Positions 4,882-52,132 of a stretch of DNA of 52,156 bases are shown here, one piece after another (positions within the stretch are counted from its first letter, which is position 1; every line of letters starts with the position of its first letter). The position numbers and the translations under genes are program-made. This DNA comes from a virus. Below the pieces are notes generated by a model. That model saw nothing but the letters and a program-made list of their open reading frames with translations, had not been told where the DNA came from and ran no database searches. The stretch spans positions 1-52,156 of the IMG/VR virus record IMGVR_UViG_3300005367_000002. The stretch is one strand, 5' to 3'.

Positions 4882-5340
4882 CTAAGAGCCCTTCTTCCGG
4901 TCTCTACGGATCTTCGACGGATTGACGTCGCCACCTTGAATCAACGACGTGACCTCGTCACCAGAGAGACCTCCGATCGCGTCGCCGATGCCGCAGGCGT
5001 TCTCATACGAGAAGACTCCGACGTTCTCTCCGGATCGAATGGCACCAATCGCCTCGATGTACCCGAGGATCTGCATCTTCAGTTTGCGGTCTAATGCGAG
5101 GCAGTCTTTGATCCTGTTGTCGAGGACTGTCTCAAATCCGTGGCAATCCTCGCACAGTGTCGTAAGGCTACCGCCGTCGTATTCCCAAGGCTTCTTTCCG
5201 CGTTGGTACACCTTGTGGTGGACGTGCAGCGGCTTCTCGATCGCGCCGCATTCCTGGCACGTAAACCCGTCGCGCTGAAGAATCTCAAGGCGCTTTCGCT
5301 GCCACCTCGGGTCACGGAGCAGGTCGATATACGAAGCCAC
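4882..5340 (-). CDS. HNH nuclease-fold protein
   Basis: 152 residues. An HNH core with CQEC at 28-31, HVHHK at 39-43 and CEDCH at 63-67 gives a zinc-bound beta-beta-alpha metal fold. A helical C-terminal extension ends in a basic tail. It is packed between the initiator and the methylase with no gap, so it looks like an operon member rather than a recent homing insertion. Roles in known phages include packaging and DNA processing; which applies here is open. Confidence 0.85.
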   Translation of the reverse strand: MASYIDLLRDPRWQRKRLEILQRDGFTCQECGAIEKPLHVHHKVYQRGKKPWEYDGGSLTTLCEDCHGFETVLDNRIKDCLALDRKLKMQILGYIEAIGAIRSGENVGVFSYENACGIGDAIGGLSGDEVTSLIQGGDVNPSKIRRDRKKGS

Positions 5341-5847
5341 CTACGCGCCCTCCTTCCAACGCCATGGCTTTAATCCCGTGTCGAGCTCGCCATACACGGC
5401 AAGCATCAGGTCCTTTGGGAACGCCGTCCGGTGCCCCATGAACGTCACGCGCGGGTTCAGCCCGAGCACGAGCGCGCGGCCGTGCACGTAGTCGCAAGCC
5501 CAGTTGGCCGTCGTCAGAGGGACGAGCAGGAAGATGCGCCGGTCCTCGTTAAGCGGCGTCTCGGCGCACTTCTTAGCCCAAGGCGCGATGTTGCCGAACG
5601 GAGGGTTGAGCCACAGGTTTCCGGCGATGTCCCAGTCAGCCCAAGACGCCAGCGCGTCGACGGCAAACATCGAACCAGGCCCAAAGTGCGAATCTCCTGT
5701 TGGGTCGCCAACCACGTTGTTTTCCGCCGTCGCGGCCAGGTCGAAGTCCATCTTCCCGAAGCGGCGCTCGACCGCATCGAGCAAGTCGCGTGGCGTGCAG
5801 ACGGTCTGTTCGGACCTGCCAGGCTTCTGGATCGGCATGAAGCTCAT
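5341..5847 (-). CDS. dam: phage DNA N-6-adenine methyltransferase (Dam family)
   Basis: 168 residues, the normal size for the phage Dam family. The N-terminal TPRDLLDAVERRFG and FDLAA blocks and the catalytic NPPF motif (near residue 81) are clear. It transfers methyl from S-adenosylmethionine to adenine N6. In phages this commonly protects DNA against host restriction. The ATG at 5847 overlaps the dUTPase stop. Confidence 0.88.
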   Translation of the reverse strand: MSFMPIQKPGRSEQTVCTPRDLLDAVERRFGKMDFDLAATAENNVVGDPTGDSHFGPGSMFAVDALASWADWDIAGNLWLNPPFGNIAPWAKKCAETPLNEDRRIFLLVPLTTANWACDYVHGRALVLGLNPRVTFMGHRTAFPKDLMLAVYGELDTGLKPWRWKEGA

Positions 5848-6290
5848 CGCTTCCCCGTGTGGCCAAATCCGCCCGCACCCCGCGCCGTCTCGCTAAGCTG
5901 CTCGACGCGGACCAGTTCGACGCGCTCGACCGGCGCGATGACGAGCTGGGCGATGCGTGTGCCGCGCATGAACGCGAGCGGTACCTGCAACACGTCCATC
6001 GCATCGCCGCTCGGCAGGTACGTGACGACGACGGAGATTTCCCCTCGATAGTCGCTGTCGATCGTCCCGAAGTGAACAAGGATTCCCTCGGCTGACAGCG
6101 ACGACCGGGGCCTGATTTGTCCTTCGAAGCCCTGCGGTATCTCGACGCAGAGCCCGGTTGCGACCTTGACAGTTTGTCCGCAGCGAACCGAAAAAAGGTC
6201 CGCGCAGCACAGGTCGATTCCTGACGCGCCGGCCGTTTGGTACGCGGGTGGCGGCACGTCGGCGAGCAGCTTGTAGCGGAGGGTCGTCAT
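5844..6290 (-). CDS. dut: dUTP diphosphatase
   Basis: 148 residues with the five trimeric dUTPase motifs in order: GASGIDL, RPRSSLS, GTIDSDYRGE, RIAQLV and the C-terminal GAGGFGHTGKR. It hydrolyses dUTP to dUMP, lowering uracil in phage DNA and feeding dTMP synthesis. Start ATG at 6290 overlaps the upstream stop; a longer reading to 6443 overlaps the previous gene and has no support. Confidence 0.93.
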   Translation of the reverse strand: MTTLRYKLLADVPPPAYQTAGASGIDLCCADLFSVRCGQTVKVATGLCVEIPQGFEGQIRPRSSLSAEGILVHFGTIDSDYRGEISVVVTYLPSGDAMDVLQVPLAFMRGTRIAQLVIAPVERVELVRVEQLSETARGAGGFGHTGKR

Positions 6291-6490
6291 CGGCGTGCCT
6301 TCGCCTTCGTAAGCGCGCCGCGGAGAGCGGACATGGATCGGCGCATGGTCTCCATCTCCTCGATTCGCTCGATTGCACGCCTCTCGGCGCAGTACGGGCA
6401 CGTGTACGAGACTCCGTGCTCTGTCGCGCAGAACCTGCCGCACTCGTAACAGCGGCGCTCGTCCAGCTCGATGTTGCGCTGGATGATCAT
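6287..6490 (-). CDS. small zinc-ribbon protein
   Basis: 67 residues with two CxxC pairs, CYEC at 14-17 and CPYC at 31-34, the geometry of a zinc ribbon, followed by a helical basic tail. ATG at 6490 overlaps the stop of the tiny membrane protein at 6487-6582. Function unknown. Confidence 0.7.
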   Translation of the reverse strand: MIIQRNIELDERRCYECGRFCATEHGVSYTCPYCAERRAIERIEEMETMRRSMSALRGALTKAKARR

Positions 6491-6582
6491 GGAAGTCCCT
6501 TGAAGACCAGCACGGCCATCATGCCGAGCATCACGGCCAGTAGATTCAGCCAGCGGACGGGCGGGAGTGGTTGGCGGTTCAT
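6487..6582 (-). CDS. single-pass membrane micropeptide
   Basis: 31 residues with one hydrophobic segment at about 12-27 (rich in Leu, Met, Val). Both ends are coupled: its ATG at 6582 overlaps the TGA of the DUF4406 gene and its TGA overlaps the next ATG. Role unknown. Confidence 0.55.
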   Translation of the reverse strand: MNRQPLPPVRWLNLLAVMLGMMAVLVFKGLP

Positions 6583-6920
6583 GGGTTGCTCCTGAGCCAG
6601 CCGCGAAGGTCTTCCAGGTCGTGAAAGACCGGGATCAGGTGGTCCCTGGCGGTCTCGATTTCTGCAAGCGCTCCCTTCGAATCAGGCCACCCGGGTACCG
6701 TCATCAGCGCATCGCACCTGAGCAGCAACGCAGCGGTTGCCTCGTACCAAAACTCCGGCGTGCAGGTTCCGACGAAGAAGCGCGTATTTGCGTGCGGAAT
6801 CAGCGGCGCCGCGCCAAGGTTCGCAACCTCGATACCGACGTCCTCGGCGCGCCTGACGTTCTTCTCGCATTCCCAAGCATTCGGCGCCGTGAACTTCCCG
6901 GCGATGTAGACAACCTTCAC
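6579..6920 (-). CDS. DUF4406 / nucleoside 2-deoxyribosyltransferase-like protein
   Basis: 113 residues. The opening VVYIAGKFTA, the middle FVGTCTPEFWYEATAALLLRCDALMTVPGW and the SKGALAEIETA helix fit the small Rossmann-like fold of the nucleoside 2-deoxyribosyltransferase / DUF4406 group. Members cleave or handle nucleotides; several phages carry them beside dUTPase, as here. Catalysis is inferred only. Confidence 0.75.
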   Translation of the reverse strand: MKVVYIAGKFTAPNAWECEKNVRRAEDVGIEVANLGAAPLIPHANTRFFVGTCTPEFWYEATAALLLRCDALMTVPGWPDSKGALAEIETARDHLIPVFHDLEDLRGWLRSNP

Positions 6921-7374
6921 GCCGCCCTCGCCTTCCCCGCCGACAGCAGCTTCCCGACCCGCGCCGACAGCAGCTCGTCGGTCGCAAGCCGCCGCTCGAA
7001 CGCCGCCGCCTGTACTGAGATGGTCGACCTGTCGCGCCGAAGCACCGCCGCGATGTCGCGCGTCCGATAGCCGCGCTGGATGAGCACGTACGCCACCAGG
7101 TCGCGCAGGCCGGTGTGGGCGCGGTGCCTGCTACGGCCGGTCGTCACCTCGCGCAGCACGGAGCGCCAGTCGCCTGCTACCTGGGACCGGACGATGGTCT
7201 CGACCATCAGCGGCAGCTCGACTGGGACGGCCACGACGGGGCGCGCCTTGGAGTCGCGGCCGATGCTGGACATGGCTAGGCGGAAGGCGGTGTGACGGGG
7301 CTCGCCGGATGCGACTAAGCGCTCGTAGAACTCAGCAGCGGCCGACAGCGATGCCTGGCGGCGGGTGGCGGATG

Positions 7375-7378
<4 letters not shown>
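6917..7378 (-). CDS. DnaA domain IV-like DNA-binding protein
   Basis: 153 residues. Residues from about 85 to 140 (RSRHRAH, LVAYVLIQRGYRTRDIAAVLRRDRSTIS) follow the DnaA C-terminal helix-turn-helix pattern, with RRDRST at the place of the signature GGRDHST. No AAA+ domain precedes it, so it is only the DNA-binding half. It could recognise DnaA-box-like sites at the phage origin or act as a regulator. It is the second large gene of the leftward replication operon. Confidence 0.65.
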
Positions 7379-8006
<628 letters not shown>

Positions 8007-8010
<4 letters not shown>

Positions 8011-8063
8011 GGCGCCCTCCTAGAAACAACCTCACGCGCGCTATTCCTGGTGGAAGTATTCAT
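8007..8063 (-). CDS. 18-residue leader peptide of the replication operon
   Basis: ATG at 8063 follows a perfect AGGAGG with 5 nt spacing, one of the best ribosome sites in the window. The frame (MNTSTRNSAREVVSRRAP) ends in a TGA that overlaps the GTG of the repeat protein gene (GTGA). It probably serves to couple or tune translation of the first long gene. Confidence 0.55.
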
Positions 8064-8330
8064 CCCAGCCTCCTGTAAAAAGAGTCAGCCGCTTCGCGAC
8101 CCGTAATGCCCCCGCTTCGACGCCAACGGAACGGTGTCAAGGCGGCCCATGGACGGGCGGAGCGGGGGCAATACCGAACGCGAAACGACGTTGTTCATGA
8201 GCGCCTTGACACTCGATTAGTCTCACGACCGCGTAACATACGCAAGAAGTTTCGTAGCGAAATCGAAGCACACGATCCCACACGGTTACCTACACGACAA
8301 GAAAGTCGCGAAAATCCGCCGTCTGACGCG
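8064..8330. promoter_or_regulatory. 267-bp noncoding control region with nested inverted repeats
   Basis: No gene is visible. Two sets of long-range inverted repeats occur: TGCCCCCGCT at 8107-8116 with AGCGGGGGCA at 8161-8170, and GTGTCAAGGCG at 8134-8144 with CGCCTTGACAC at 8202-8212. The second pair places a TTGACA in both directions. A short palindrome TTTCGTAGCGAAA follows near 8250. No convincing -10 box was found at the right distance from either TTGACA, so this is a candidate operator/promoter or origin region for the leftward operon, not a proven one. Confidence 0.45.
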
Positions 8331-8699
8331 TCACCCCGGAAACGCACGGCGCTTCGCTGCCAGGTCCGCAGATGGTAACCCAAGGCGACGGGCCTCGGCG
8401 TCGAGCTCGGCCCGCTGCTCTGCTGTCACGCGGTACACGATCGGTTTGGTTGCGCTGCTGCCCGTGCTCACCGGGCGCCCGCGTGGCAGCTCGCCAGTGG
8501 CCAGCGCGAGCGCCCGCCGCTGACGTAGCACCAAGCGCCGGAACGCCGCCTCAGTGGTCCACGATGGCGTCTGGCCGGTCCCTCGGTCCTGGACCCAGGA
8601 TCCGTCCCGCCCGCGATGGAATAGGCCCCATCCAGCCCCCTTCGAGTCCTTCTCTGCGCCGTACTCGATGCCCTCTATGGTCGTCGTCAGGTAGGCCAT
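8331..8699 (-). CDS. hypothetical protein
   Basis: 122 residues. An N-terminal beta-like part (IEGIEYGAEKDSKGAGWG) is followed by a helical C-terminal third (VTAEQRAELDAEARRLG) that resembles ribbon-helix-helix or small regulator tails, but no family is clear. It is the second gene behind the dyad-covered promoter at 8969-8997. Confidence 0.65.
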   Translation of the reverse strand: MAYLTTTIEGIEYGAEKDSKGAGWGLFHRGRDGSWVQDRGTGQTPSWTTEAAFRRLVLRQRRALALATGELPRGRPVSTGSSATKPIVYRVTAEQRAELDAEARRLGLPSADLAAKRRAFPG

Positions 8700-8701
8700 G
8701 G

Positions 8702-8947
8702 TCAGGCCTCCGCCGCGCAGGACAGCGTCTCGACGACCGTCTCGCGTCCTCGGCCGCCGGTGACGATTTCGATGGATGCGCGCTCCGGGTGCTCCATGTC
8801 GTCCAGGACGATCTTGGCCTGGGCGGCGGCGAGTCGGCGCGCATCCTCGAGCGAGAATGCCGTCTCGACGCAGTTTCGCATCACGTCACCCTCCGGCATA
8901 CGGATGGCGAGGACAATTCGATGAAGGGTCTTTGTCGTGTTCGTCAT
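8702..8947 (-). CDS. hypothetical small protein, first gene of a regulated unit
   Basis: 81 residues. No Shine-Dalgarno precedes the ATG at 8947. A good promoter (-35 at 8997-8992, -10 TAATAC at 8974-8969) lies just upstream and is overlapped by a 40-bp dyad. The sequence (LHRIVLAIRMPEGDVM, FSLEDARRLAAAQAKIVLDD) suggests an alpha/beta fold. Position beside the integrase makes a lysogeny or excision role possible, but unproven. Confidence 0.6.
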   Translation of the reverse strand: MTNTTKTLHRIVLAIRMPEGDVMRNCVETAFSLEDARRLAAAQAKIVLDDMEHPERASIEIVTGGRGRETVVETLSCAAEA

Positions 8948-8949
8948 GA

Positions 8950-8989
8950 ATACTGTTGTACAGGAACTGTATTACCTGTGCAACAGTAT
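8950..8989. promoter_or_regulatory. 15-bp-arm dyad operator
   Basis: ATACTGTTGTACAGG (8950-8964) and CCTGTGCAACAGTAT (8975-8989) form an inverted repeat with 14 of 15 matching positions and a 10-bp centre. It covers the spacer, -10 and start region of the minus-strand promoter, as a repressor site would. Confidence 0.65.
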
Positions 8990-8997
8990 ATCGACAA
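8969..8997 (-). promoter_or_regulatory. sigma70-like promoter for 8702-8947
   Basis: On the minus strand TTGTCG (8997-8992), a 17-nt spacer and TAATAC (8974-8969). The predicted start is near 8962, giving a short leader of about 15 nt before ATG 8947 with no ribosome site. Confidence 0.6.
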
Positions 8998-9008
8998 GCA
9001 ACCGACGA

Positions 9009-10049
9009 TTAAGACGCGCCGCGGCTGTCGCCAGCCGCCCCCGCCACGATCTGATTCGTCAGGGTCGCGGGCGAGCGGTGCGGGCCCTTGCGCGTCGCCT
9101 GCTCGAGCAGTTCGTGGGCGGCCTCGATGTCCTTCGAGTTGACGCGGATGTACCCGGCGGTCGTCGTGAGCGACGCATGGCCGGCGATCTTCTGGATGGC
9201 GCCAATTGGAGCCCCGAGCCGGTGCAGGCGGCTGATGGCCGTCCCGCGCAAATCATGCAGGCGGACCGACTTGTCCCCGGCCGCTGGCTGAAGCTTCGCC
9301 TCGTCGGCCGCCCGCCGCCAGCGTGACGTGATCGTCGCCTGGTGCCACGGGCGCTTCGTCTCCGGGTTGCAGAAGACCCACGGCGAGCCGGGCACCCTCG
9401 GCACGGCCTGGAGCGCCTCAATGGCCCTGGACGTGAGCCGGCCGGCGCGAGCTCGCTTAGTCTTCGTGCGCGCCGCTGGGATGGTCACGGTCCCTGACGC
9501 CATGTCGAGGTCGGTCCATTCGAGCAACCGGATTTCGTCCCGCCGCATGGCCGTGTCGACCGCCACGATGATGAACGCCTGCATAGTCGGGTCGAACCGC
9601 TCTAGCACGGCCGCCTCACCGTCGGCGCTCACCTCCGTTTCGCGCTTCGGCGCGCCGCGCTCGCGCTTGACGTCCTTCCAGGGGTTCGACGCCATCCGGC
9701 CCGTGCGCACCGCCCAGCCAAAGAACGTCGACATGCGCTTCAGGTGCAGGTTCCGGCTCGTCGAGCAGAACCGCGCGCGAATGGCCGGATCATCCCGGTA
9801 GTCCTCCCAGTGCTGGACTGTGATGGACGACGCTGCGAGCTCTCCGATGCGCGCCAGAATCGGCTTCGTCATCGAAATCATCGACCGCACCCAGTGCTCA
9901 GCTTCCTTCGCGGGCAGCGTCGCCAGGTACCTCGTCCAGAGCTCGCCGACGGTCACGCGCTCGAGCGCCGCGCCCTCTTCGTCCGTGTCCAGCAGGGCAC
10001 GTAGGGTCGCGATCGTCTGCACGATCTGGCGGCGGGCGTCTGGCGTCAC
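9009..10049 (-). CDS. int: tyrosine recombinase integrase
   Basis: 346 residues. An N-terminal SAM-like core-binding domain (about 35-125) and a catalytic domain with the family residues: Arg 169 in TAMRRDEI, HDLR at 265-268, His 291 in GHAS and the nucleophile Tyr 300 in GYIR. It integrates and excises the phage at att sites. GTG start at 10049; a TGCAC-GTG-GTGCA palindrome lies 14 bp upstream. The gene faces the same way as its neighbours, with the dyad-covered promoter beyond its 3' end. Confidence 0.93.
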   Translation of the reverse strand: MTPDARRQIVQTIATLRALLDTDEEGAALERVTVGELWTRYLATLPAKEAEHWVRSMISMTKPILARIGELAASSITVQHWEDYRDDPAIRARFCSTSRNLHLKRMSTFFGWAVRTGRMASNPWKDVKRERGAPKRETEVSADGEAAVLERFDPTMQAFIIVAVDTAMRRDEIRLLEWTDLDMASGTVTIPAARTKTKRARAGRLTSRAIEALQAVPRVPGSPWVFCNPETKRPWHQATITSRWRRAADEAKLQPAAGDKSVRLHDLRGTAISRLHRLGAPIGAIQKIAGHASLTTTAGYIRVNSKDIEAAHELLEQATRKGPHRSPATLTNQIVAGAAGDSRGAS

Positions 10050-10062
10050 GATCTCGTGTCAG

Positions 10063-10075
10063 TGCACGTGGTGCA
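10063..10075. promoter_or_regulatory. palindrome upstream of the integrase
   Basis: TGCAC, 3-bp centre, GTGCA. It lies 14 bp before the GTG start and could be an operator or an integrase arm-type site. Confidence 0.35.
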
Positions 10076-10204
10076 TTGTGGTACCAAGTGTTTGGAAAAC
10101 CGCGTTATCATTCAGACAAGCGGAATCGCCCCGCGTCAGCACAGAGCGTGCCTACGGGTTTCCTTGATTTCGCGGCGCAGCCGGCCGATTTCCGGCACGC
10201 CCCG

Positions 10205-10221
10205 GTTTCAAAATCCGAAAC
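10205..10221. other. candidate attP core
   Basis: GTTTC and GAAAC arms flank a 7-bp centre (AAAATCC), the geometry of a tyrosine-recombinase crossover site. It also loosely resembles a tRNA T-loop, a frequent attB target. It is a short match and only suggestive. Confidence 0.2.
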
Positions 10222-10276
10222 ACCGACTATCGCGTCCGGCCCGCGGCCGGCCTGGACGATGGCGTCCGGCTGCCGG

Positions 10277-10501
10277 TCAGCGGCGACGTGAGCGAGGCGG
10301 CGCCCATCGGCGGGCGCGCTCGAGGCAGCGGATCACCATGTTGCCGAGGAGCGCTTGGTCGCGGCTGATGTCATGGAGCTCGCGTTCGACGTCCGAAAAT
10401 CGCCGGTCATGGTCGTCGACTCGGCCCTCAAGGCGTTTGATTCGGCCGAGGATTGGGTTCCCCGATGGCGACACGGATGGCAACTTGGATCGCCTTGGCA
10501 T
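10277..10501 (-). CDS. small coiled-coil protein
   Basis: 74 residues. The centre (IKRLEGRVDDHDRRFSDVERELHDI) has heptad spacing of hydrophobics typical of a short coiled coil; the tail is very Arg-rich. Last gene of the recombination operon, ending before the noncoding stretch upstream of int. Confidence 0.6.
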   Translation of the reverse strand: MPRRSKLPSVSPSGNPILGRIKRLEGRVDDHDRRFSDVERELHDISRDQALLGNMVIRCLERARRWAPPRSRRR

Positions 10502-10562
10502 CGAGTCAGCCGGTGGAATGGCGCCCGGGCGGGCGTGTCAGTACGCCGCCCGGGCGCGTCGG

Positions 10563-11150
10563 TCAGAACCTCAGATCGTCCTCACTTGGAGGCGGGACAT
10601 CGTCGGGAGGAGGCAGTGTGTCGTTACCGCTCCATTCGTCGCTTGGCGGCGGAGCGCTCGGAGCCTGTCGCTCGGCCTTCTTGCCGGCCACCGCAGGGAT
10701 CCCCTTCAGCGTCGACTTGAGTTGGGCCGAGTATTTCCGCAGGGACGTGGAATCAAGCGGCTTCTCGAAGGTGAAACCTCGAGTCGCGGGATTGATCCAC
10801 TTTACCTTCGCCCGCGTCTTGTTCTCGTACGTCTCGTGCTCGACCACGATCTGGCACTCGATGTCCGGGTGCTGGTCGGCGAACTTGTCGATGTCGTCAC
10901 CGGTGAAGCCGCACGCGCGCAGGGACTCCAGCGACCGCTCGGCCACGGTCTTACCGGATTTGCCGGCGGTGTCGGCAAAGTACAGAAAGGCCATGATCTT
11001 CTGTCCTGCGCATGGCCCGTTCAGAATTTCGAAGGAGACGGCGGCGACGAAGGGGCTGTTTTTCGTGCCGGGGCCCCACTGGATATGGACCGGTCCTTTC
11101 TCGGTCTCGACGGGGGAAACGACTGCTGCGTAAGTACCTTCTGGTAGCAT
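10563..11150 (-). CDS. single-stranded DNA-binding-like protein (DUF669-like)
   Basis: 195 residues. Residues 1-130 are beta-rich and open with LPEGTYAAVV, as phage DUF669/OB-fold proteins do, with an internal FTGDDIDKF helix. The C-terminus (about 160-195) is Pro/Ser-rich and ends in acidic DDLRF, matching the acidic tail by which SSBs recruit partners. It sits next to a RecA-like ATPase and an exonuclease, a common phage recombination trio. The family call is moderate; the SSB-like tail is visible. Confidence 0.7.
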   Translation of the reverse strand: MLPEGTYAAVVSPVETEKGPVHIQWGPGTKNSPFVAAVSFEILNGPCAGQKIMAFLYFADTAGKSGKTVAERSLESLRACGFTGDDIDKFADQHPDIECQIVVEHETYENKTRAKVKWINPATRGFTFEKPLDSTSLRKYSAQLKSTLKGIPAVAGKKAERQAPSAPPPSDEWSGNDTLPPPDDVPPPSEDDLRF

Positions 11151-11179
11151 GATGATCCTCTCTTTCGATCGTGGTTGGT

Positions 11180-12256
11180 CTACTGCTGTGACTCGTTGGC
11201 CACCGTCGGCCGGTCCTTTAGCTTGGCGAGGATGCGCGAGAGCGCGGCCGGGTCGTCCTTGGCGCCGGCAACCGCTGAGGCGACCTTTGCCGGCAGGGCT
11301 TGGTCACCAATGCGCTTGACCTCATCTTCGATCGCAGCCTTCAGTGCCGGGACCTCGTTTTCGTAGCCAGCTTCGACGGCGGCAGCGAGGGGGGCCCACG
11401 GGTTCTCGATGTCGATCTCGACCTCCTCCGGGAGCGCCAGCCGCGACTTCGCGTCGAATGCCGCCGAGTGCGAGAGCATGAGCAGGCGACGTCCTGTGCT
11501 GAATCCCTTCGGGCGCCCGTTCTTATTGCCGAGCTCCTTTGCCGCGTCGTCCTCGTGGCGAACGAACCCGGTCAAGTCGCACCAGCCCTTCAGGAAGCCG
11601 GCGGCCTTGTCGTGTAGTGCAGGTTGATAGCGGTCGTAGTCCGGACCGGTCGGGTTCTTGTACGCCTTCACAATCGAGTGCGCGATGAGGACGACGGACA
11701 TTCCGCGGTTCGCTCGGAGGCGATCCAGCCGCGCGCACAGCGCCCGCCATTCGTCGACGGCCATCACGTACCCCTTGCCGTACCCGAACGACTCGATCGA
11801 CGTGAGCGATCCGTCCTTGCCGCGCGCCGATGGCTCGGACTCGCGCTCGATGATGTGCTGCCACAGCATGGCCTCGATGCGGTCGACGGTGTCCAGCACC
11901 AGCGTTTTGAACGGGTGCGGATTGACAGTCAGATCCTGGATGGCAAAAAGAATCTCGCTGTACCGCTGCGGCACATGCCCGCCTGGTTCGTCACGGAACT
12001 GGTAACGGGCAACATTCAAGCGACCTGACCCGTCGTCAGCGTCGAGCCAGATGGGCTCCGGGGCCGCCGAGGCAAGGGTGCTCTTTCCGGTCCCCTCGGC
12101 TCCATAGAACATGTAGCGCAAGGGCGCGCGAAGGCGCTCTCGCTTCACGGCGCCGAGGCGGCTCAGTGGCGCCTGTGGCTTGGGCGGTGCTGTGGTTGCG
12201 GCTGTAGCTGCTGCGGGCATGGTTCCACTCCTCTTTCGTGGTTTCTGGTCGGTCAC
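11180..12256 (-). CDS. RecA/Sak4-like phage ATPase (AAA_24 type)
   Basis: 358 residues. After a disordered Ala/Pro/Thr-rich 40 residues, Walker A is at 52-59 (GAEGTGKS) and Walker B at 119-125 (LVLDTVD). The RLRANRGMSVVLIAHS block further on is the usual sensor strand. Sak4-type proteins aid annealing together with a partner SSB; AAA_24 members are otherwise uncharacterised. The neighbours (SSB-like 10563, exonuclease 12695) favour a recombination role. Confidence 0.85.
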   Translation of the reverse strand: MTDQKPRKRSGTMPAAATAATTAPPKPQAPLSRLGAVKRERLRAPLRYMFYGAEGTGKSTLASAAPEPIWLDADDGSGRLNVARYQFRDEPGGHVPQRYSEILFAIQDLTVNPHPFKTLVLDTVDRIEAMLWQHIIERESEPSARGKDGSLTSIESFGYGKGYVMAVDEWRALCARLDRLRANRGMSVVLIAHSIVKAYKNPTGPDYDRYQPALHDKAAGFLKGWCDLTGFVRHEDDAAKELGNKNGRPKGFSTGRRLLMLSHSAAFDAKSRLALPEEVEIDIENPWAPLAAAVEAGYENEVPALKAAIEDEVKRIGDQALPAKVASAVAGAKDDPAALSRILAKLKDRPTVANESQQ

Positions 12257-12702
12257 GCTGACTTCAGCGTGAGCTCTTTGTAAATTCGATTGGTCTTGAT
12301 GCTGTGAATCGTTTCCTTCCTGACTCCGAACTCACGTGCGAGATCGCATTGCCTGTGACCATCGCCAAGCCGCCGTCTGATTTCAGCGACCTTCTCGTCA
12401 GAAAGCTTGCACGGCACCGCGCGATTCAAGACTTGTTGCCGACGGCTCGCCCAGCGGCAATTCTCGGGCTCGTAGTTACGACTGTTGTCAATTCTGTCGA
12501 TGGTCATTCCGACTGGCCGAGGGCCCATGTCGGCCAGGAATGCCTGGAATTTCTCCCATCTCTCGCAAACGGTAATTCCGCGAGCACCGTACGACTTCCA
12601 GTCTGAGCCTTGGCGAGCGCGGACCCTCTGCCACATAGCTCGCCACGATTGGTACTCTGGTGACGTTGCGCCTGTTCCTCTGTGCCCGTGTCTGTCAGCC
12701 AC
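12253..12702 (-). CDS. HNH homing-type endonuclease with C-terminal HTH
   Basis: 149 residues. The SYGARGITVCERW segment and the MTIDRIDNSRNYEPENCRWA block are the conserved core of freestanding HNH homing enzymes. A C-terminal helix-turn-helix (CDLAREFGVRKETIHSIKTN) would bind target DNA. It lies between two recombination genes with only short overlaps. No split gene or intron was seen, so if it is a homing enzyme it is a freestanding one. Confidence 0.85.
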   Translation of the reverse strand: MADRHGHRGTGATSPEYQSWRAMWQRVRARQGSDWKSYGARGITVCERWEKFQAFLADMGPRPVGMTIDRIDNSRNYEPENCRWASRRQQVLNRAVPCKLSDEKVAEIRRRLGDGHRQCDLAREFGVRKETIHSIKTNRIYKELTLKSA

Positions 12703-13726
12703 CGTTAACTCCCGCCTGGATGCTCAATTCCTCGTGGACGTTCTCCGTCCGCCGAAATTTGGTCTCGTCGTCGAGAGATGCGACACCACTGCACGCGTCG
12801 AAGAACGCGCAGGTTCGCCCGTACATGTGGCAGGCGCCCGGATTCCTCGGCGCATGGTCGATGCTTGCCAGTTCCCGGATTTGGAGCGCGGTCGCCTCAA
12901 CGTCCCTGGCAGACTCTTCGAGTTCGCTCTCGAGGCGGACCACCTCACCGCGGGCGAAGTAACCGTCTGGCGCTTTCGAGATCAGCCCGGCCAGCCGATC
13001 GCGGAATTCCTCGACGGTTTCGTCCGACTCGCGCTGCTTGGCATAGAGGCGCCCGTCCTTGGTGTATTTGCGCTGGTCCTCGGGCGTTGCCTTCAGTGGC
13101 CTTTGACTCGGCCGCACGATCACGTCGTAGAAACAACCTTCGGGCTCGTACCCGAGCGCGCGGCACCCGCCGAAGTAGATCGACACCTGCGGGTCCATCC
13201 GAAGCCGGTTCCAGTATGTCGACCCGGCCGACAGGTCGGCTCCGGTGGTCTTGTGTTCGACGAACCAAATCGAGCCGTCGATGCGCTTCCGCACGAGCTT
13301 GTCGAACTTGCCGGCGACGCGCAGCCGCTTCCGGCCTGGCACCATGGCCACGAATTCAACCTCGACGCCGATGACTTCCAATTCGTGCATCGTCGGCGCC
13401 CACCGCGCGTCGTAGGCGACCATCATCACGCTGGCCTTCGCGAATGCGGCATCGTCGACAGCCGGGGCCTTCGACCGGTAGTCGGCCATCGCCGACAGCG
13501 CCGACGACAGAGCCAGCCCTGAAAACGGCACCGTGTCTGCCGTCTCCGGCATGGCGGCGTCCTTGTATGTCGACCACCACGCGTCTAGCCCCGCGTGGAA
13601 CAGGCTTCCGAAATCAGCATCCTCACGCTCGGTGAGCGCGCGATAGCCGAGGTTGTAAGTGTTCTGGTGATATCGCTGGCACAGGTTGAACGCGGCCAGC
13701 CTGGACTTCGTGATGACCTCGACCAC
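12695..13726 (-). CDS. PD-(D/E)XK exonuclease (RecB/Cas4-like)
   Basis: 343 residues. Hallmarks: SRLAAFNLCQRYH near the start, FGSLFHAGL with His 44, AGKFDKL with Asp 142, and VEHKTT with Glu 157 and Lys 159. C-terminal Cys residues (CHMYGRTCAFFDAC) suggest an iron-sulphur or zinc clasp as in Cas4/AddB-type nucleases. It should resect DNA ends for the SSB/ATPase pair. GTG at 13726 was chosen because it sits next to the upstream stop; a longer reading to 13828 overlaps the preceding gene. Confidence 0.85.
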   Translation of the reverse strand: MVEVITKSRLAAFNLCQRYHQNTYNLGYRALTEREDADFGSLFHAGLDAWWSTYKDAAMPETADTVPFSGLALSSALSAMADYRSKAPAVDDAAFAKASVMMVAYDARWAPTMHELEVIGVEVEFVAMVPGRKRLRVAGKFDKLVRKRIDGSIWFVEHKTTGADLSAGSTYWNRLRMDPQVSIYFGGCRALGYEPEGCFYDVIVRPSQRPLKATPEDQRKYTKDGRLYAKQRESDETVEEFRDRLAGLISKAPDGYFARGEVVRLESELEESARDVEATALQIRELASIDHAPRNPGACHMYGRTCAFFDACSGVASLDDETKFRRTENVHEELSIQAGVNGG

Positions 13727-13728
13727 CG

Positions 13729-13950
13729 CTACACCGCCCCCCTGCTGATGAACCTGCCAGCACGGTCCAGCGCCTCGGCGACGGTCCGCACGCCGCCGTC
13801 GATGGCTCTGATCTCGCCGTCGCGCCAAAGCTCAACCGTCCAGCAGCCGGATTCCTTGACGATGTGGATCGCGAGGGTCCCGCGGGCGGCCATCTCAAGC
13901 ATCTCGCGCGCCGCCAGCAACTTGGATCGCGCCATGTTCGTGTCCGTCAT
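13729..13950 (-). CDS. hypothetical protein
   Basis: 73 residues. A helical start is followed by beta strands (LAIHIVKESGCWTVELWRDG). Coupled at both ends to the neighbouring genes. No family recognised. Confidence 0.6.
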   Translation of the reverse strand: MTDTNMARSKLLAAREMLEMAARGTLAIHIVKESGCWTVELWRDGEIRAIDGGVRTVAEALDRAGRFISRGAV

Positions 13951-14399
13951 GGCCGCTCTCCTGCCCGCACGGCTTCGTTCGCCTGGTCCATCACCCCACC
14001 GCGCCCGTAGACCTCAGACGGGTGGGCGTGCCAGTCCTCGCCGAGCTTGAGCTGGCGCCAGTGGTACAGCTCATGAGCGATTGACGTCCACGACAGAGCG
14101 CGGCCAGGCTGCCAGGCCACCGCGATGCCCTCCTCGGGGTTCGTATCGCCGTCGAGGCAGCCGCGCGACGTCCTGAACCCGATCCAGTCGTCGAGAAACA
14201 TCGGGCAGGCTGGATCCAACTCGTCTCCGGTCACCCAACGCACGGTTGGCGGCGGCGTCTCGCCCATGCCGTACGAATCGACCCAGATGGACCGCGTCGC
14301 CTCGGCCTGGCCCGGGAGTTCGTAGACCTCGCCCGGCAGGCTCTCGTAGCATCCGGCGAGCGCACAGGCATGCAGCGCCAGCACAGACAGCCACTTCAC
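13947..14399 (-). CDS. secreted lipoprotein with HExxH metalloprotease motif
   Basis: 150 residues from a GTG at 14399 (GTGA overlap). Residues 1-17 form a lipoprotein signal ending in LAGC with Cys 17 as lipid site. HELYH lies at 109-113, the zinc-binding core of many metallopeptidases, followed by HAH at 124-126 and Glu 129 as possible third ligands. It would be exported and membrane-tethered, unlike its DNA-processing neighbours. The substrate is unknown, and an inactive binding protein cannot be excluded. Confidence 0.65.
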   Translation of the reverse strand: MKWLSVLALHACALAGCYESLPGEVYELPGQAEATRSIWVDSYGMGETPPPTVRWVTGDELDPACPMFLDDWIGFRTSRGCLDGDTNPEEGIAVAWQPGRALSWTSIAHELYHWRQLKLGEDWHAHPSEVYGRGGVMDQANEAVRAGERP

Positions 14400-14527
14400 G
14401 ACCACACCGCCCTTCGGCACAGTGCCTCTACCGCCAGACACTCAACCTCCTCGGCGGTGAGCAGAAGAAGCGCGGTACGGTCGTCGACGCGAAGCCACGA
14501 GCCGATGAGGCGGACGTAGGAGCGCAT
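14396..14527 (-). CDS. small hypothetical protein
   Basis: 43 residues; ATG at 14527 overlaps the preceding TAA by one base (TAATG). A Leu-rich middle (TALLLLTAEEVECLAVEAL) suggests a helical hairpin. No family. Confidence 0.5.
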   Translation of the reverse strand: MRSYVRLIGSWLRVDDRTALLLLTAEEVECLAVEALCRRAVWS

Positions 14528-14640
14528 TACCTGCTCCCCCTGAACGACTTTTCGATGGTGTCGAGCAGCGCGAGGCCGAGCGCGAGCACCACGATGGTGC
14601 CTACGATCATGTGCTTGTCCCACCAGTCGAACAGCGTCAT
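14527..14640 (-). CDS. single-pass membrane micropeptide
   Basis: 37 residues with one hydrophobic helix at about 11-27 (IVGTIVVLALGLALL) and a basic tail. ATG at 14640 overlaps the previous TGA. Confidence 0.55.
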   Translation of the reverse strand: MTLFDWWDKHMIVGTIVVLALGLALLDTIEKSFRGSR

Positions 14641-14852
14641 CGGCACACCGCCGCGTCGTCGATCATCGCCCGCAGCGCGATGCCCGTGCAGAACTCGCAT
14701 ACCGACCGATCGTCCGGCAGCACGATCGAGGCGGTCACGCCCTGGCGGCACACGGCGCACGTCGCGGGCCGGGTCGACTTGATCAGCGTGACGTCCGGCG
14801 GGTCCTGACTGGAGCGGAAGGCAGATGCGGGAAGGTCGGCGAAGGCGGTCAC
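14637..14852 (-). CDS. zinc-ribbon protein
   Basis: 71 residues from GTG at 14852. CAVC (about 32-35) and CEFC (about 52-55) form a likely zinc ribbon. Coupled within the operon; role unknown. Confidence 0.65.
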   Translation of the reverse strand: MTAFADLPASAFRSSQDPPDVTLIKSTRPATCAVCRQGVTASIVLPDDRSVCEFCTGIALRAMIDDAAVCR

Positions 14853-15229
14853 CGCGCACCTCCGAATCGAGCCACCACCGTCACCTCGTCGGGGTCGACC
14901 TGTCTCGGCCGAACTTCGCCGTACGAACTCGCCACGCATGCAGCGATGCACGCCGACAGGCTCTCCGATGGCGAGGCAACCAGCGGCGCAAGGCGCGGCA
15001 TGGCCGGGCGCTTCGGACCTGTGTCGTTCGCCGGTCTAGCGCGCTTCCCGGTCCCCTTGCACGCGGGGCACGAGTCGATCCCCTTCACGCCGTTCACCTC
15101 GACGGCAACCGCCCCAGTGCCGTCGCACGTGGAACACGTCTCCTCGGTCTCCATGGTCATCTCCTTCCACCGAATCGCCTTCACACGTCGGGATCCGAAC
15201 CAAACGCTCGTCCGCTGCCAGGTCGTCAC
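14849..15229 (-). CDS. DnaJ-type zinc-finger protein
   Basis: 126 residues, GTG at 15229. CSTCDGTG (about 32-39) and CPACKGTG (about 54-61) are paired CxxCxGxG repeats, the zinc-centre signature of DnaJ. No J domain is present. The C-terminal half has small helices. Such isolated motifs are frequent in phages, with no settled function. Confidence 0.7.
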   Translation of the reverse strand: MTTWQRTSVWFGSRRVKAIRWKEMTMETEETCSTCDGTGAVAVEVNGVKGIDSCPACKGTGKRARPANDTGPKRPAMPRLAPLVASPSESLSACIAACVASSYGEVRPRQVDPDEVTVVARFGGAR

Positions 15230-15471
15230 GCGCGCACCTCGGCGGTGACCTCGGCCTTCGCCTTCCTGTCCAGCTCGCGAATCAGCAGCCGCAGCACCCG
15301 GCCACGCTCAGGCCGCTCCGCGCCGCTCGCCTCGAGCCGCGCACGTACCCATTCGAGCGCGCGGAACTCGGTACATGGCATCGCGAAGTGGCGGGTGTCA
15401 CCAAACTGCATCCACCAGCCACGACCGCCGCCTGGGCTGCGCTCGACGACCACGGATACCGTGCGGGTCAC
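15226..15471 (-). CDS. hypothetical basic protein
   Basis: 81 residues from GTG at 15471 that overlaps the TGA of the first operon gene. Beta-like N-terminus and an Arg-rich helical C-terminus (RVLRLLIRELDRKAKAEV). No family. Confidence 0.6.
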   Translation of the reverse strand: MTRTVSVVVERSPGGGRGWWMQFGDTRHFAMPCTEFRALEWVRARLEASGAERPERGRVLRLLIRELDRKAKAEVTAEVRA

Positions 15472-15668
15472 GCCCCACCCTCTTCCGCGGCTTTGCATGA
15501 CGCACACAGGACGACCTCGTTGAACATCCCGCCGAGGACCTCGCCATCAGCGCCGCAGCTTTCGCAGCTGTCGCCGAGGGCCAGGCGGCAGGGGGCGCAG
15601 CGGTCGCCGGGGCAGCAGGTGGCGGAACCGCAGACCGACTCGACCGCTTCGTGGTTCATCGTTGCCAT
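15468..15668 (-). CDS. first gene of the recombination operon, Cys-rich zinc protein
   Basis: 66 residues with many Cys (CCPGDRCAPC, CESC, CASC) arranged as at least one zinc ribbon. ATG at 15668 directly follows the operator arm TAGACAC and lies 7 nt after a -10 box, so the mRNA should begin at or next to the start codon. There is no Shine-Dalgarno. An in-frame ATG at 15689 would fall inside the promoter and was rejected. Confidence 0.7.
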   Translation of the reverse strand: MATMNHEAVESVCGSATCCPGDRCAPCRLALGDSCESCGADGEVLGGMFNEVVLCASCKAAEEGGA

Positions 15669-15697
15669 GTGTCTATTCATAGCGACCAATTAGACAC
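15669..15697. promoter_or_regulatory. 29-bp palindromic operator, copy 1
   Basis: GTGTCTA (15669-15675), 15-bp centre, TAGACAC (15691-15697). It overlaps the spacer and start region of the operon promoter. A further half site TAGACAC occurs at 15722-15728, within a partial direct repeat (AGCGACC at 15681, AGCGACT at 15711). Confidence 0.75.
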
Positions 15698-15704
15698 ACG
15701 TCAA
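15676..15704 (-). promoter_or_regulatory. leaderless promoter of the recombination operon
   Basis: On the minus strand TTGACG (15704-15699), 17-nt spacer, TATGAA (15681-15676), then 7 nt to ATG 15668. Both boxes are close to sigma70 consensus. Confidence 0.7.
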
Positions 15705-15745
15705 ACGCAAAGCGACTAGGTTAGACACGAAAAAATGCATCGCGT

Positions 15746-16030
15746 CTAGTCCGTGTCCTTGATGCCGTTCTTCCAGGCGTCCCGGGGAATGCCCCACGGA
15801 TCTGCCTCGAAGAACTTCACCGCGTCTGCCGGGATGGCCCGGGCCGATTCGCTGCCTTTCGGCGCGTACCATGAACGGACAGTGGTCCGGGGGACGTTGC
15901 GCTTCAGGGCCTTTGTCACCTCGGCGGCCACATCGGGGATGGACTTCCCGAGAGCCTTTGCCCTGATGGGCAGCGGGTGGCGGCTCGTGAACTTCGGCCC
16001 CGACACTTTCGGTGTGTCCGTGCTTGACAT
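15746..16030 (-). CDS. HTH transcriptional regulator (putative repressor)
   Basis: 94 residues when begun at ATG 16030, which follows operator copy 2 by one base. The centre (AKALGKSIPDVAAEVTKALKRNVPRTTVRSW) has the layout of a phage repressor-type helix-turn-helix and is followed by a short acidic tail. The frame is open upstream to a GTG at 16222 (158 residues); that extension is a GC3-rich, coiled-coil-like stretch that also looks coding. The regulator probably binds the two 29-bp palindromes, controlling itself and the operon at 15668. Family membership is judged from pattern only. Confidence 0.7.
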   Translation of the reverse strand: MSSTDTPKVSGPKFTSRHPLPIRAKALGKSIPDVAAEVTKALKRNVPRTTVRSWYAPKGSESARAIPADAVKFFEADPWGIPRDAWKNGIKDTD

Positions 16031-16222
16031 CGTGTCTATTCTCATGTCATTGATAGACACGGTTGTCAATGGCCCCATCGCCCGAATCGCCTCGATCGTG
16101 TCGGCCGCGCCTCGAAGCTGCTTGGCTCGAGTCGTCAGTGCGGCGGCTTCTCGCTCGAACCTGTCGGCCAGGGCGCGGAGCTGGTTCGGCGTCATCGTCT
16201 CGGGCTGCTTCGGGTCGCTCAC
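16031..16222 (-). CDS. in-frame N-terminal extension of the regulator
   Basis: 64 codons from GTG 16222, continuous with the regulator. Residues 10-50 are helical (TPNQLRALADRFEREAAAL) with strong third-position GC, as expected of real coding. The last 15 codons coincide with operator copy 2 and lose that bias. It may be made as a 158-residue long form from a separate start; TACGTT lies 6 nt before the GTG but no good -35 is seen. Confidence 0.45.
16032..16060. promoter_or_regulatory. 29-bp palindromic operator, copy 2
   Basis: GTGTCTAT (16032-16039) and ATAGACAC (16053-16060). The symmetry extends outward: TTGACA occurs on the plus strand at 16024-16029 and on the minus strand at 16069-16064, so both directions could be served by one repressor site. 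Confidence 0.75.
16041..16069 (-). promoter_or_regulatory. candidate autoregulated promoter of the regulator
   Basis: TTGACA at 16069-16064 is clear. A -10 is weaker (CATGAG at 17 nt, TGAGAA at 19 nt). Aligned with the operon promoter, the operator arm and the ATG fall in the same places with 3 extra bases. Confidence 0.5.
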
Positions 16223-16253
16223 GGGCCAAACGTATCAGAGGGAGAGGTCGAGC

Positions 16254-16427
16254 ATGAACGAGAATTCGATGTGGACGCTCTGCACGCTGCTGGTCGTCTC
16301 GATGTTCGTCGGGCTGGCCGTCGTCGGCAAGGGGTGCTGCGAGGCATCCGAGAAGACCATGCAGACGTGCCTGACGTCGGGTCGTCCGATCGCCGAGTGC
16401 GCGCTCATCGGCAGGGGGCGTCAGTGA
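16254..16427 (+). CDS. small membrane protein, first gene of the rightward operon
   Basis: 57 residues preceded by AGAGGGAGAGG, a strong ribosome site. Hydrophobic residues 7-25 form one membrane helix or signal, followed by a Cys-containing segment (GKGCCEASEKTMQTC) that could be periplasmic. A Gly-Lys after the helix and the adjacent Cys leave a secreted form possible. Role unknown. Confidence 0.65.
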   Translation: MNENSMWTLCTLLVVSMFVGLAVVGKGCCEASEKTMQTCLTSGRPIAECALIGRGRQ

Positions 16428-16534
16428 CCTTCGCCCGCATTCGCCCGCTGGAGCTCGCCGTCATCGTGTGCGGCGCGTGGGGACTGCTGGCCGGGCCGGT
16501 GAGCCTGGTCGTCTGGCTGATGGGAGGGAAGTGA
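16424..16534 (+). CDS. membrane micropeptide
   Basis: 36 residues from GTG 16424 (GTGA overlap with the previous stop). Residues 11-32 are hydrophobic (LAVIVCGAWGLLAGPVSLVVW). Ends on the GTGATG that starts the next gene. Confidence 0.55.
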   Translation: MTFARIRPLELAVIVCGAWGLLAGPVSLVVWLMGGK

Positions 16535-16965
16535 TGGACGCGCAGCGAGCCAAGTATCGAATTGTCACCGCCACTGACCCGGCGCTCTGGTGCGTCCGCC
16601 GCGTCTTCGGCGCCGCCGGTGGACCGGATGAGATTGCCCTGACGGCAGAGGGCATGGAGCGGGCGTTCTCGGTTGGCGCGCAAGTCCGCCGTGGCGCGCC
16701 CGCTCTGGCGCTTGAGGCACTCGCGACCGTCGGCGGGGAGGCCTCGTTGTCGGTCAGGAATGGCGCAAGGCTCAGTCCCACCGACCTTGGCCGCCGATTC
16801 GATCAGGCAGCGTGGGGCGTTCTCCGCTCCCTCGGCTATGTCGAAGGGCTGGACACCGTGCACCTCACCGCCGCAGGTAAACGGGCCGTCGAGGACGGCG
16901 CTGTCGAGCGGCGCCGGCTCCTTGCGCGCTGTCGCCGCGCCGCCGGGACGGAGTTGACGCCATGA
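16534..16965 (+). CDS. hypothetical protein
   Basis: 143 residues, with GGGAGGGAAG as ribosome site. The order of helices and a short strand (LTAEGMERAF, LSPTDLGRRFDQAAWGVLRSLGYVEG, HLTAAGKRAVEDG) suggests a winged-helix fold, so DNA binding is possible. No firm family. Confidence 0.65.
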   Translation: MDAQRAKYRIVTATDPALWCVRRVFGAAGGPDEIALTAEGMERAFSVGAQVRRGAPALALEALATVGGEASLSVRNGARLSPTDLGRRFDQAAWGVLRSLGYVEGLDTVHLTAAGKRAVEDGAVERRRLLARCRRAAGTELTP

Positions 16966-17153: not shown

Positions 17154-17494
17154 GCGCGCCGAGCAAGGAGGAGATGGAATGGGACCTGGTCGCCGAGGCC
17201 GTCTCAGAAGCCAGGAGAGCCGTCGCCGACGGAGAGCCAATGTATCTTCAGCGCGCCATCGTCGCGGTGGCAAACGCATATGTTCGGCGCGGAGACGAAA
17301 ACGAACGGCTGCGAGCGGAGCGCGCCGAGTGCTTGGAGTTGCTGGAGGAAGTCGACGACGTCCTCGGCGAATCCGCCGACATAATATCAGATTGGCGAGC
17401 AGGCGAAGAGCCGCGAATCATGTCGCGGGAGTGGATCGGTAAGTACGACAAGCTCTGCGCAAACCTCCTAAGGTTTCTAGGCCAGCAGCCATGA
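17150..17494 (+). CDS. hypothetical acidic helical protein
   Basis: 114 residues, almost wholly helical, with a coiled-coil-like centre (ENERLRAERAECLELLEEVDD). No enzymatic motif. Coupled in the rightward operon. Confidence 0.65.
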   Translation: MSAPSKEEMEWDLVAEAVSEARRAVADGEPMYLQRAIVAVANAYVRRGDENERLRAERAECLELLEEVDDVLGESADIISDWRAGEEPRIMSREWIGKYDKLCANLLRFLGQQP

Positions 17495-17673: not shown

Positions 17674-18179
17674 CCGCCGACAAGCCCGATGGTGGAGCTA
17701 ATTGCCGCGTCTGCGGGCACTACGAAACGTCGCTGAAGCTAGCGACCGACCTATACGCGCATTGCCCCGCGTGCGGGAGAGGGGCGCATTGGATGCCAGT
17801 CGACGCCGACAAGCTCGAGGCGGGGCGGACGTGCGCCGTGTGGTGCGGGACTGGCGCCGGGCCTGACTTCCGCAGCTGGGGCGAAGAGACGTGGTGCACG
17901 CGGGAATGCGCCAAGGAGTGCAATCCGCTGAACCCGGCCCCGCGCCCCGTCGAGCCGCCCGTGAGATTCCCACCGGTCGGGTCAACGCACTGGAGCGTTG
18001 GTATCGAGCCGAAGCAGTCCCGCCCTGTCGAGCGCTGCTCGTGCGCGGAGAGCGTCGCGCTGCGGAAGGCGCTGGAGACGATTCGCATAAGGCTGGACGC
18101 ATGGCCGGTTGCTCCTGCGAAGGAAATCTACGACATCGCCCGGCGCGCCTTGGCGCTCGGAGAGGAGACGACCAAATGA
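17670..18179 (+). CDS. multi-Cys zinc-binding protein
   Basis: 169 residues. Cys pairs at CRVC (12-15) and CPAC (32-35) form a first ribbon; CAVWC, CTREC and KEC around 54-84 look like a second. A Pro-rich linker leads to CSC at about 122 and a helical end. The start resembles that of 17491-17673. Function unknown. Confidence 0.65.
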   Translation: MTADKPDGGANCRVCGHYETSLKLATDLYAHCPACGRGAHWMPVDADKLEAGRTCAVWCGTGAGPDFRSWGEETWCTRECAKECNPLNPAPRPVEPPVRFPPVGSTHWSVGIEPKQSRPVERCSCAESVALRKALETIRIRLDAWPVAPAKEIYDIARRALALGEETTK

Positions 18180-18304: not shown

Positions 18305-19682
18305 CGGCGCTGTCTGTACGAAGTGCACGGATACGCGTCTGACGTGCCGTTCGTGCTTCGACTTTCACATGAAGGCCCTGGCCGACCGAATCGCGAAGCT
18401 GGAGGCGGCGGTTGACGGTCTATTGGAGGTTTCTGACGCGATGAAACAGGCGTTCGACAATCTTCGGAAGATGGATGCGTGGCGCGAGTCATTCAGGCTA
18501 CCTCTGTGTCCATTCGGCAGTAGATGCCGAGGTGATGCATGCTCACATGGGCGGGCAGACGCTCCGCAGCCCGCTAAGCCGCCCGCCGCTGCCACGGACG
18601 CCTTGGAGTCGGTAGAGCGAAACGCCGCTGCCGGACCCGCCGAGCAACCTGCAAACGCGGCTGATGAGTTAGCCGCCGCATGCAAGCGCGAGACAGTGCT
18701 GATGGCGCGAGCCATGTCAACCGTCGCGCTTGGAGCGCGGATAGAGCCAATCGAGCCGCCCGCGCCGGCCCCTCGGGTGGAGATGCGCGTTGCCGCAGAG
18801 CACGCCGATGAATACCTGGCCCAGCGGTTGCGCGAAGCCACGCCGTTTGGCGCTGAGGCGATCGAACGTGTGCTTGAGACGCCGCCCGCGCCGGCCCAGG
18901 GCGCACCCGCCGAGCCGCTGAAGCCGTGGCCAACGAATCGGCTTGCGTGGTGCTGCTGGTGCGACCGCCGCGACATTCCATCGGCAACAGCCAAGGACCA
19001 CTGGCAGCAGTGCGAGGAGCATCCGGCTAACGAACGAATCGCCGCCCTCGAAGCGCGACTCGCCGCCGCCGAAACTGAGAAGGCAATGCTATCCGCCCAC
19101 TGCGTCCGTGCCGAGCGCATCGCGCAGGAGAGAAAGGACAAGCTCGCCGCCGCCGAACAGTCGCGGGCGGTACTGGAGAAAGTTGTCGAGCACCATCGTG
19201 GACTGGCGGACAAAGTCATAGCCGCCGAACGGGAGCGCGACGAGACCGCCTGTGAACTGCAAACGTATCTCGTGCGCGAGGACAAGTTGATGCGGGAGCG
19301 CGACGAGGCTCGCCGAGACGCCGTTGGCAGAACCGCCCGCGAATCGTGGCAGCGAGCCGAGAAGGACCTCGTCGACGCCAGACGTGAAATCGGCGTGCTA
19401 CAGGGCGCGCTGAACACCGCCCATGTCGCGAAGGATGCAGCGGTCGCTGCCGAGCGCGAACGGTGGCAGAAGTTCCACGACGAAGAGAAAGAACGGTGGC
19501 GCGCGGGCCTTCAACGTGCGAACGAGGCGGCAGAGAACCGCGTCGCGAACGTAATCTCCGACTGCCTGCGCATCGTCGAGGCGTACGAACCGCGCCGTGA
19601 CGTGCCGGCCGACTGGAGTTACCAGGGCGCGTTGAGCCGAGTCGCCGAGGCCATCCGCGACGGGCGACCGGCTCCGAAATGA
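18297..19682 (+). CDS. long coiled-coil protein with Cys pairs
   Basis: 461 residues from ATG 18297 (GGAAAGG 8 nt upstream); ATG 18279 is an alternative that adds 6 residues. CTKC and CRSC near the start and CCWC near residue 220 could bind zinc. Residues 245-440 are a long, strongly charged coiled coil with many Arg, Glu and Ala. The middle is Pro/Ala-rich linker. It is the last rightward gene and meets the leftward nuclease gene with 4 bp between stops. It may be a scaffold or host-takeover protein. Confidence 0.65.
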   Translation: MGDGAVCTKCTDTRLTCRSCFDFHMKALADRIAKLEAAVDGLLEVSDAMKQAFDNLRKMDAWRESFRLPLCPFGSRCRGDACSHGRADAPQPAKPPAAATDALESVERNAAAGPAEQPANAADELAAACKRETVLMARAMSTVALGARIEPIEPPAPAPRVEMRVAAEHADEYLAQRLREATPFGAEAIERVLETPPAPAQGAPAEPLKPWPTNRLAWCCWCDRRDIPSATAKDHWQQCEEHPANERIAALEARLAAAETEKAMLSAHCVRAERIAQERKDKLAAAEQSRAVLEKVVEHHRGLADKVIAAERERDETACELQTYLVREDKLMRERDEARRDAVGRTARESWQRAEKDLVDARREIGVLQGALNTAHVAKDAAVAAERERWQKFHDEEKERWRAGLQRANEAAENRVANVISDCLRIVEAYEPRRDVPADWSYQGALSRVAEAIRDGRPAPK

Positions 19683-52004: not shown

Positions 52005-52132
52005 GGCCGCCCCGCAATCTCCCAGCACACCTCGCGGCACTTCCCGAGATGGCCTGGCCGCAGGTTGCAGGTACCGACGACCGTGCCGTCAGGCAGTTTG
52101 AGCGGCGCGCCGCACGTCGGCTCGGGTGTCAT
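52001..52132 (-). CDS. small Cys-containing protein
   Basis: 43 residues. C7, C22 (GTCNLRPGHLGKC, with C32) and C36 with a His between suggest a small zinc site. The ATG at 52132 lies in the terminal repeat; its other copy is at 96-94. Confidence 0.6.
   Translation of the reverse strand: MTPEPTCGAPLKLPDGTVVGTCNLRPGHLGKCREVCWEIAGRP

Follow-up and report, generated by a model that had tools for sequence, protein, structure and literature searches.

The window, by which we mean the whole stretch of DNA analysed, is a virus contig of 52,156 bases and carries a small regulatory locus next to its leftward early genes. An open reading frame on the minus strand (15746-16222) encodes a putative repressor of 158 residues, the long form, with an N-terminal helix, a disordered linker, and a predicted HTH domain. 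The ATG at 16030 lies in the same frame and would give a putative short form of 94 residues (MSSTDT..., 15746-16030, minus strand) that comprises the HTH domain only. Two copies of the inverted repeat GTGTCTA-N15-TAGACAC, to which no strand is assigned, delimit the HTH-coding segment: O1 (15669-15697) overlaps the promoter P1 (15676-15704, minus strand), and O2 (16032-16060) lies in the promoter P2 (16038-16069, minus strand). A further perfect GTGTCTA half-site (15722-15728, minus strand) lies 31 bp from the O1 half-site, on the upstream side of P1.

Downstream of P1, the leftward operon begins with gene 1 (15468-15668, minus strand), which encodes a Cys-rich, zinc-ribbon-like protein of 66 residues. 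A homologue directly follows P1 in the related phage L107, and different Cys-rich small proteins are found after P1 in the other relatives. The leftward early region (2768-15668, minus strand) comprises genes for exonuclease, HNH, Sak4, SSB-like, integrase, dUTPase, Dam, replication initiation, and DnaB proteins, all on the same strand. The first-pass annotation had placed the first site at the promoter of a recombination operon and the second at that of the HTH gene. Both assignments were supported, with two corrections: the region holds more than recombination genes, as those for Dam, dUTPase, replication initiation, and DnaB are also leftward on this strand, and the HTH start at 16030 is internal to a frame that is open up to a GTG at 16222. 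We infer that a single transcript could span the whole leftward early region (2768-15668). A gap of approximately 0.5 kb precedes the integrase gene, so that integrase and the later genes may be controlled separately and may have promoters of their own. At the position where the window has Sak4, L121 encodes a protein that is Bet/RecT-like by eye (L121:4217-5374); the recombination genes thus differ between relatives.

The contig carries a perfect 120-bp direct terminal repeat (1-120 and 52037-52156) and probably represents a complete phage genome. Because of this repeat, a site search across the window is effectively genome-wide. The integrase, Sak4, exonuclease, and DnaB genes fit the early region of a temperate phage, and the integrase is of the tyrosine type (9009-10049). 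Judged by its genes, the phage family is temperate, and it is known only from metagenomes. A nucleotide search of annotated phages yielded merely short chance matches, the terminase had only a distant match among them, and the helix (coil) protein had none; no relative of the window phage was found in the genome-contig sets scanned. We compared the window with six metagenomic relatives. L104, L106, L107, and L108 were found through the helix and constitute, together with the window, the five fusion phages, in which helix and HTH domain are joined. L121 and L122, which lack the fusion, were identified by way of a conserved gene nearby. Since the relatives were found through the helix or a neighbouring gene, this sample of seven phages is small and not random. 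In the rightward arm, blocks of 35-100 bp (16436-16536, 17294-17349, 18131-18170, 18377-18412, and 18881-18925) are 88-100% identical in several relatives within otherwise diverged sequence; they are possible hotspots for mosaic recombination or possibly conserved small genes.

The first-pass annotation had described O1 and O2 as twin 29-bp sites, and both are indeed exact matches of equal length. One arm of each adjoins a start codon, with 0 nt between O1 and the ATG at 15668 and 1 nt between O2 and the ATG at 16030. Just outside the other arm lies a TTGACR -35 element, which is TTGACG at O1 (15704-15699, 1 nt outside) and TTGACA at O2 (16069-16064, 3 nt outside), likewise as originally described. 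No further copy of GTGTCTA-N15-TAGACAC was found in all 52,156 bases at up to three mismatches; the number of exact matches expected from 100 shuffles was 0. O1 and O2 are the sole case in the window of a 7-bp perfect inverted repeat that reappears within 1 kb with identical arms and equal spacing, and the 60 Markov-simulated windows together contained a single such case. Of the six exact GTGTCTA half-sites in the genome, five are located within 15669-16060, the fifth of these being the one at 15722-15728; L104 and L107 likewise possess an additional half-site upstream. An exact-pattern scan of IMG/VR returned 97 stretches. Among the 80 listed, each had a single site except a near-identical contig with two copies, and the other matches listed were taken as chance. 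An outward TTGACA at the second copy, also claimed originally, exists on the plus strand (16024-16029) and is part of the short-form coding sequence. A rightward promoter starting from it was rejected, since it has no plausible -10 element (16047-16052 reads TCATTG).

P1 consists of TTGACG (15704-15699), a 17-nt spacer, and TATGAA (15681-15676), followed by 7 nt to the ATG at 15668. P2 consists of TTGACA (16069-16064), a 20-nt spacer, and a weak -10 element, GAGAAT (16043-16038), again followed by 7 nt to the ATG at 16030. In all seven phages, P1 reaches a -35/-10 hexamer score of 8-9 out of 12 with the -10 element 6-7 nt from the ATG, whereas a score of at least 8 is reached by 0.7% of the ATG and GTG codons in the window. 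The P2 scores range from 7 to 10 across the phages; the five fusion phages have weak -10 hexamers there, and the 20-nt spacing in the window is long. For the long form we propose a third promoter, P3, whose -10 element TACGTT (16229-16234, minus strand) follows a TGA and precedes the GTG at 16222 by 6 nt. All five fusion phages have TAC-N-N-T 6 nt before the long-form GTG, and the -35 element is weak or absent in most. A GATAC/GTATC core between this GTG and the divergent rightward gene (16223-16255), present in all five, possibly marks overlapping divergent promoters.

Apart from one AAGG at P1 of L122, no Shine-Dalgarno-like 4-mer was detected at P1, P2, or P3. A -10 element 6-7 nt before the start without a Shine-Dalgarno sequence is the arrangement of all seven P1 promoters; the elements of P2 and P3 are weaker. 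Since leaderless genes in Deinococcus are driven by TANNNT -10 hexamers next to the start codon (PMC12340547), leaderless transcription can reasonably be assumed here. With the -10 element 7 nt from each start codon, the P1 and P2 mRNAs are therefore probably leaderless. O1 and O2 overlap the spacer and the -10 element and reach to within 0 or 1 nt of the start codon, so the earlier notion of an operator covering both promoter and translation start is backed by this leaderless-type spacing. A literature search for leaderless immunity repressors gave nothing that matched directly. In L121, P1 and its operator lie inside the 3' end of the regulator gene, whose stop codon overlaps the start of gene 1 (ATGA; L121:2711-2754).

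As the HTH frame is free of stops up to the GTG at 16222, O2 lies inside the reading frame and is at the same time linker-coding DNA. The 158-residue frame is conserved as a protein in four relatives, which places O2 inside a gene, where it separates the long from the short form. The structure model comprises a helix (residues 12-48), a linker with a pLDDT below 50 (residues 51-74), and, after residue 80, an HTH-like compact helical bundle (residues 81-158) that AlphaFold predicts with a pLDDT of about 80-92. The HTH domain had no significant Pfam match, and its best hits in the PDB were weak by sequence (E 0.023) and by Foldseek (E 1.0). L121 and L122 have neither the helix fusion nor an upstream ORF. 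They contain P2 and a short form only, a regulator of another kind with 65-68 residues. These small basic proteins with the motif RAKKLSxK...AxxRW (L121:2557-2754 and L122:1896-2102) take the place of the HTH regulator; they had no Pfam match, gave a poor model (pLDDT 64), and may represent a different kind of phage DNA-binding repressor. They suggest that a short regulator alone suffices, and thus the N-terminal helix is probably an added part for oligomerisation or interaction.

Comparison of the fusion phages indicated that the HTH segment is exchanged as a unit together with both operators. The helix-coding DNA is 86-94% identical among the window, L106, L107, and L108 (86-93% when each of the three is compared with the window), whereas the identity of the cassette (O2, HTH, and O1; 15669-16060, minus strand, roughly 390 bases), which lies between conserved flanks, is 32-53% among the five fusion phages. 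BLAST homology to L106 and L108 stops at position 16060, the outer edge of O2. Homology to L107 stops at 16076, just outside O2, and resumes at 15662, just past O1 and the start codon of gene 1. The integrases of the L107 and L108 contigs are 96-97% identical to that of the window; these phages are therefore close relatives that carry different cassettes. From these alignments, the repressor gene and its two matching control sites seem to form one cassette that differs from phage to phage in a conserved locus.

Each of the six relatives has the same two-promoter layout with its own motif at both promoters, and phage-specific repeats occupy the place of O1 in all six. L104 has GCAACCAAT-7-ATTGGTTGC at P1 and GCAACCAAT at P2; all four of its exact half-sites are found at the two starts, where five of the six in the window also cluster. 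In L107, P1 carries GCAACGATT-7-ATTCGTTGC, and two copies of GCAACGAAT are present at P2. At P1 of L108, GCATCGGTT forms a wide inverted repeat, to which P2 shows a partial match, and L106 has direct repeats of GTAGAGT at P1 and ACTCTAC at P2. In L121 and L122, ATGCAAGCG or GATGCTTRCGCAAG occurs in the spacer of both P2 and P1. Across the seven phages, the mean score of the P2-P1 motif match was 9.6 within a phage versus 6.0-6.4 between phages, and self-pairing was the best of 5,040 permutations, beating all 5,039 re-pairings. The individual self-matches were strong in the window and L107 and weaker in L106, whose score was reached by 24 of 500 shuffles. Relatedness of the repressors did not significantly predict similarity of the operators in these seven phages (Mantel rho 0.25; 686/5,040). 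The same site therefore stands at the repressor's own promoter and at the early lytic promoter, as the exact copies O1 and O2 in the window and as the paired motifs in all seven phages, and the HTH protein probably binds the twin sites at both.

Taken together, it is likely that 15669-16060 constitutes a self-contained immunity cassette of a temperate phage, in which a small, autoregulated HTH repressor, flanked by an operator on either side, governs the leftward early operon and which is fused behind a helix in five phages. Binding of the repressor to O1 would switch off P1 at the head of the leftward recombination and replication operon, and binding to O2 would limit the repressor's own synthesis from P2. 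As both operators cover the -10/start-codon region of presumably leaderless promoters, binding would block initiation directly. In the window and four relatives, the cassette is fused in frame behind the conserved N-terminal helix, for which the upstream promoter P3 is proposed. With O2 in linker-coding DNA, the locus could yield both a long product with helix and HTH and a short one with the HTH alone, and two nested proteins are likely on sequence grounds. A swap of the cassette between relatives would transfer the repressor along with both operators and thereby switch the immunity specificity in one step. More tentatively, although the idea has nearly even standing, we propose a plug-in arrangement: a stretch that serves as operator, leaderless promoter, and linker-coding DNA is placed between the helix and a replaceable HTH domain, so that one recombination at the operator borders would swap the specificity and keep the nested forms.

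A different arrangement, which we regard as rather unlikely, is that O2 in the fusion phages is not located at a working promoter and acts as a roadblock within the P3 transcript, like the L5 stoperators, with the long form as the only product. The weak P2 -10 hexamers of these five phages and the position of O2 inside a continuous conserved reading frame are consistent with such a role. Yet each of these -10 elements is followed after 7 nt by an in-frame start codon (ATG or GTG) in all five, the MSST/MPST start recurs in L107 and L108, and L121 and L122 lack an upstream ORF and rely on P2 alone.

It is similarly doubtful that the HTH protein, while binding the sites, is a Cro- or excisionase-like early regulator instead of the lysogeny repressor. 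Its small size, the lack of a C-terminal cleavage or dimerisation domain, and its transcription in the same direction as the early operon would suit such a regulator. However, no other clear repressor was found among the scanned ORFs, motifs that change together with the gene are typical of immunity specificity, and the sites are not near the integrase gene.

We consider it very improbable that the short form alone is real and that the upstream frame merely happens to be open, as a separate ORF or one that is not translated. The start at 16030 was the one chosen in the first-pass annotation, and L121 and L122 use short regulators by themselves, but the N-terminal protein is conserved in five phages, including the diverged L104, whose N-terminal part is the same and whose long form is 38% identical. 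Most changes in the helix-coding sequence among the window, L106, and L107 are synonymous; in L108 no excess of synonymous changes is seen there, and its amino acids differ too. Furthermore, helix, linker, and HTH domain share one stop-free frame in all five fusion phages despite linkers of varied length and sequence. Still less credible is that the sites serve recombination, replication, or a host factor and are not operators of the HTH protein: they sit exactly at the borders of the exchanged segment, but phages with shared flanks have different motifs, the motifs of each phage match one another, and they lie on promoter elements.

The proposed immunity cassette would work like known repressor/operator systems; it is not of the cI/cro type by its layout, and not of the L5 stoperator type by its number of sites. 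Heteroimmune lambdoid phages swap the specificity of their immunity regions as repressor plus operators, as proposed here, and lambda cI is reportedly made from a leaderless mRNA, as would be the case at P2. Further similarities to the lambda cI/OL/OR system (PMC4557955) would be the small HTH repressor, operators over promoters, and autoregulation. Unlike lambda, the locus has no divergent cI/cro pair with a shared control region between the genes: one operator lies at each end of the HTH segment, the gene is codirectional with the early operon, and the variable HTH domain is C-terminal and the conserved part N-terminal. The two forms of the mycobacteriophage BPs repressor gp33 differ at the C-terminus through integration at attP, whereas those considered here would differ at the N-terminus through an internal promoter. 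In BPs, too, gp33 has a long and a short form, the short form binds, probably as a tetramer, and the operators, composed of two half-sites with a spacer, lie at the repressor's own and the early promoter (PMC4557955). The present locus resembles this in its operators of two half-sites with a spacer at both promoters and in its putative long and short forms.

The repressor isoforms of Streptomyces phage phiC31 are N-terminally nested, and its sites are inverted repeats. Isoforms of one repressor and inverted-repeat sites would likewise characterise the window phage. Three isoforms are known for phiC31, and 18-30 dispersed sites are quoted for phiC31 and L5 (PMC4557955). In contrast, the whole genome analysed here holds two sites and one half-site, and the two sites are symmetric, unlike the many asymmetric ones of the L5 type. 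The Cluster A mycobacteriophages L5 and Bxb1 are heteroimmune and have diverged repressors with matching diverged binding sites (PMC6550527). The matched divergence among related phages is similar; Cluster A, however, displays asymmetric dispersed stoperators and gradual divergence, whereas the cassette has a sharp border. In a limited search of open papers, we found no case of an operator located in the linker-coding part of a fused repressor gene and combined with a sharply bounded, exchangeable cassette.

How phages change their immunity specificity without passing through a state in which repressor and operator are mismatched is an old question. In this family, what is exchanged can be delimited almost to the base in several relatives, its borders lying at the operators or next to them, and one control-site sequence must meet the demands of operator, promoter, and protein linker together. 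Several repressor/operator pairs are available for direct tests of orthogonality. From the paired motifs, each phage seems to have an immunity lock and key of its own.
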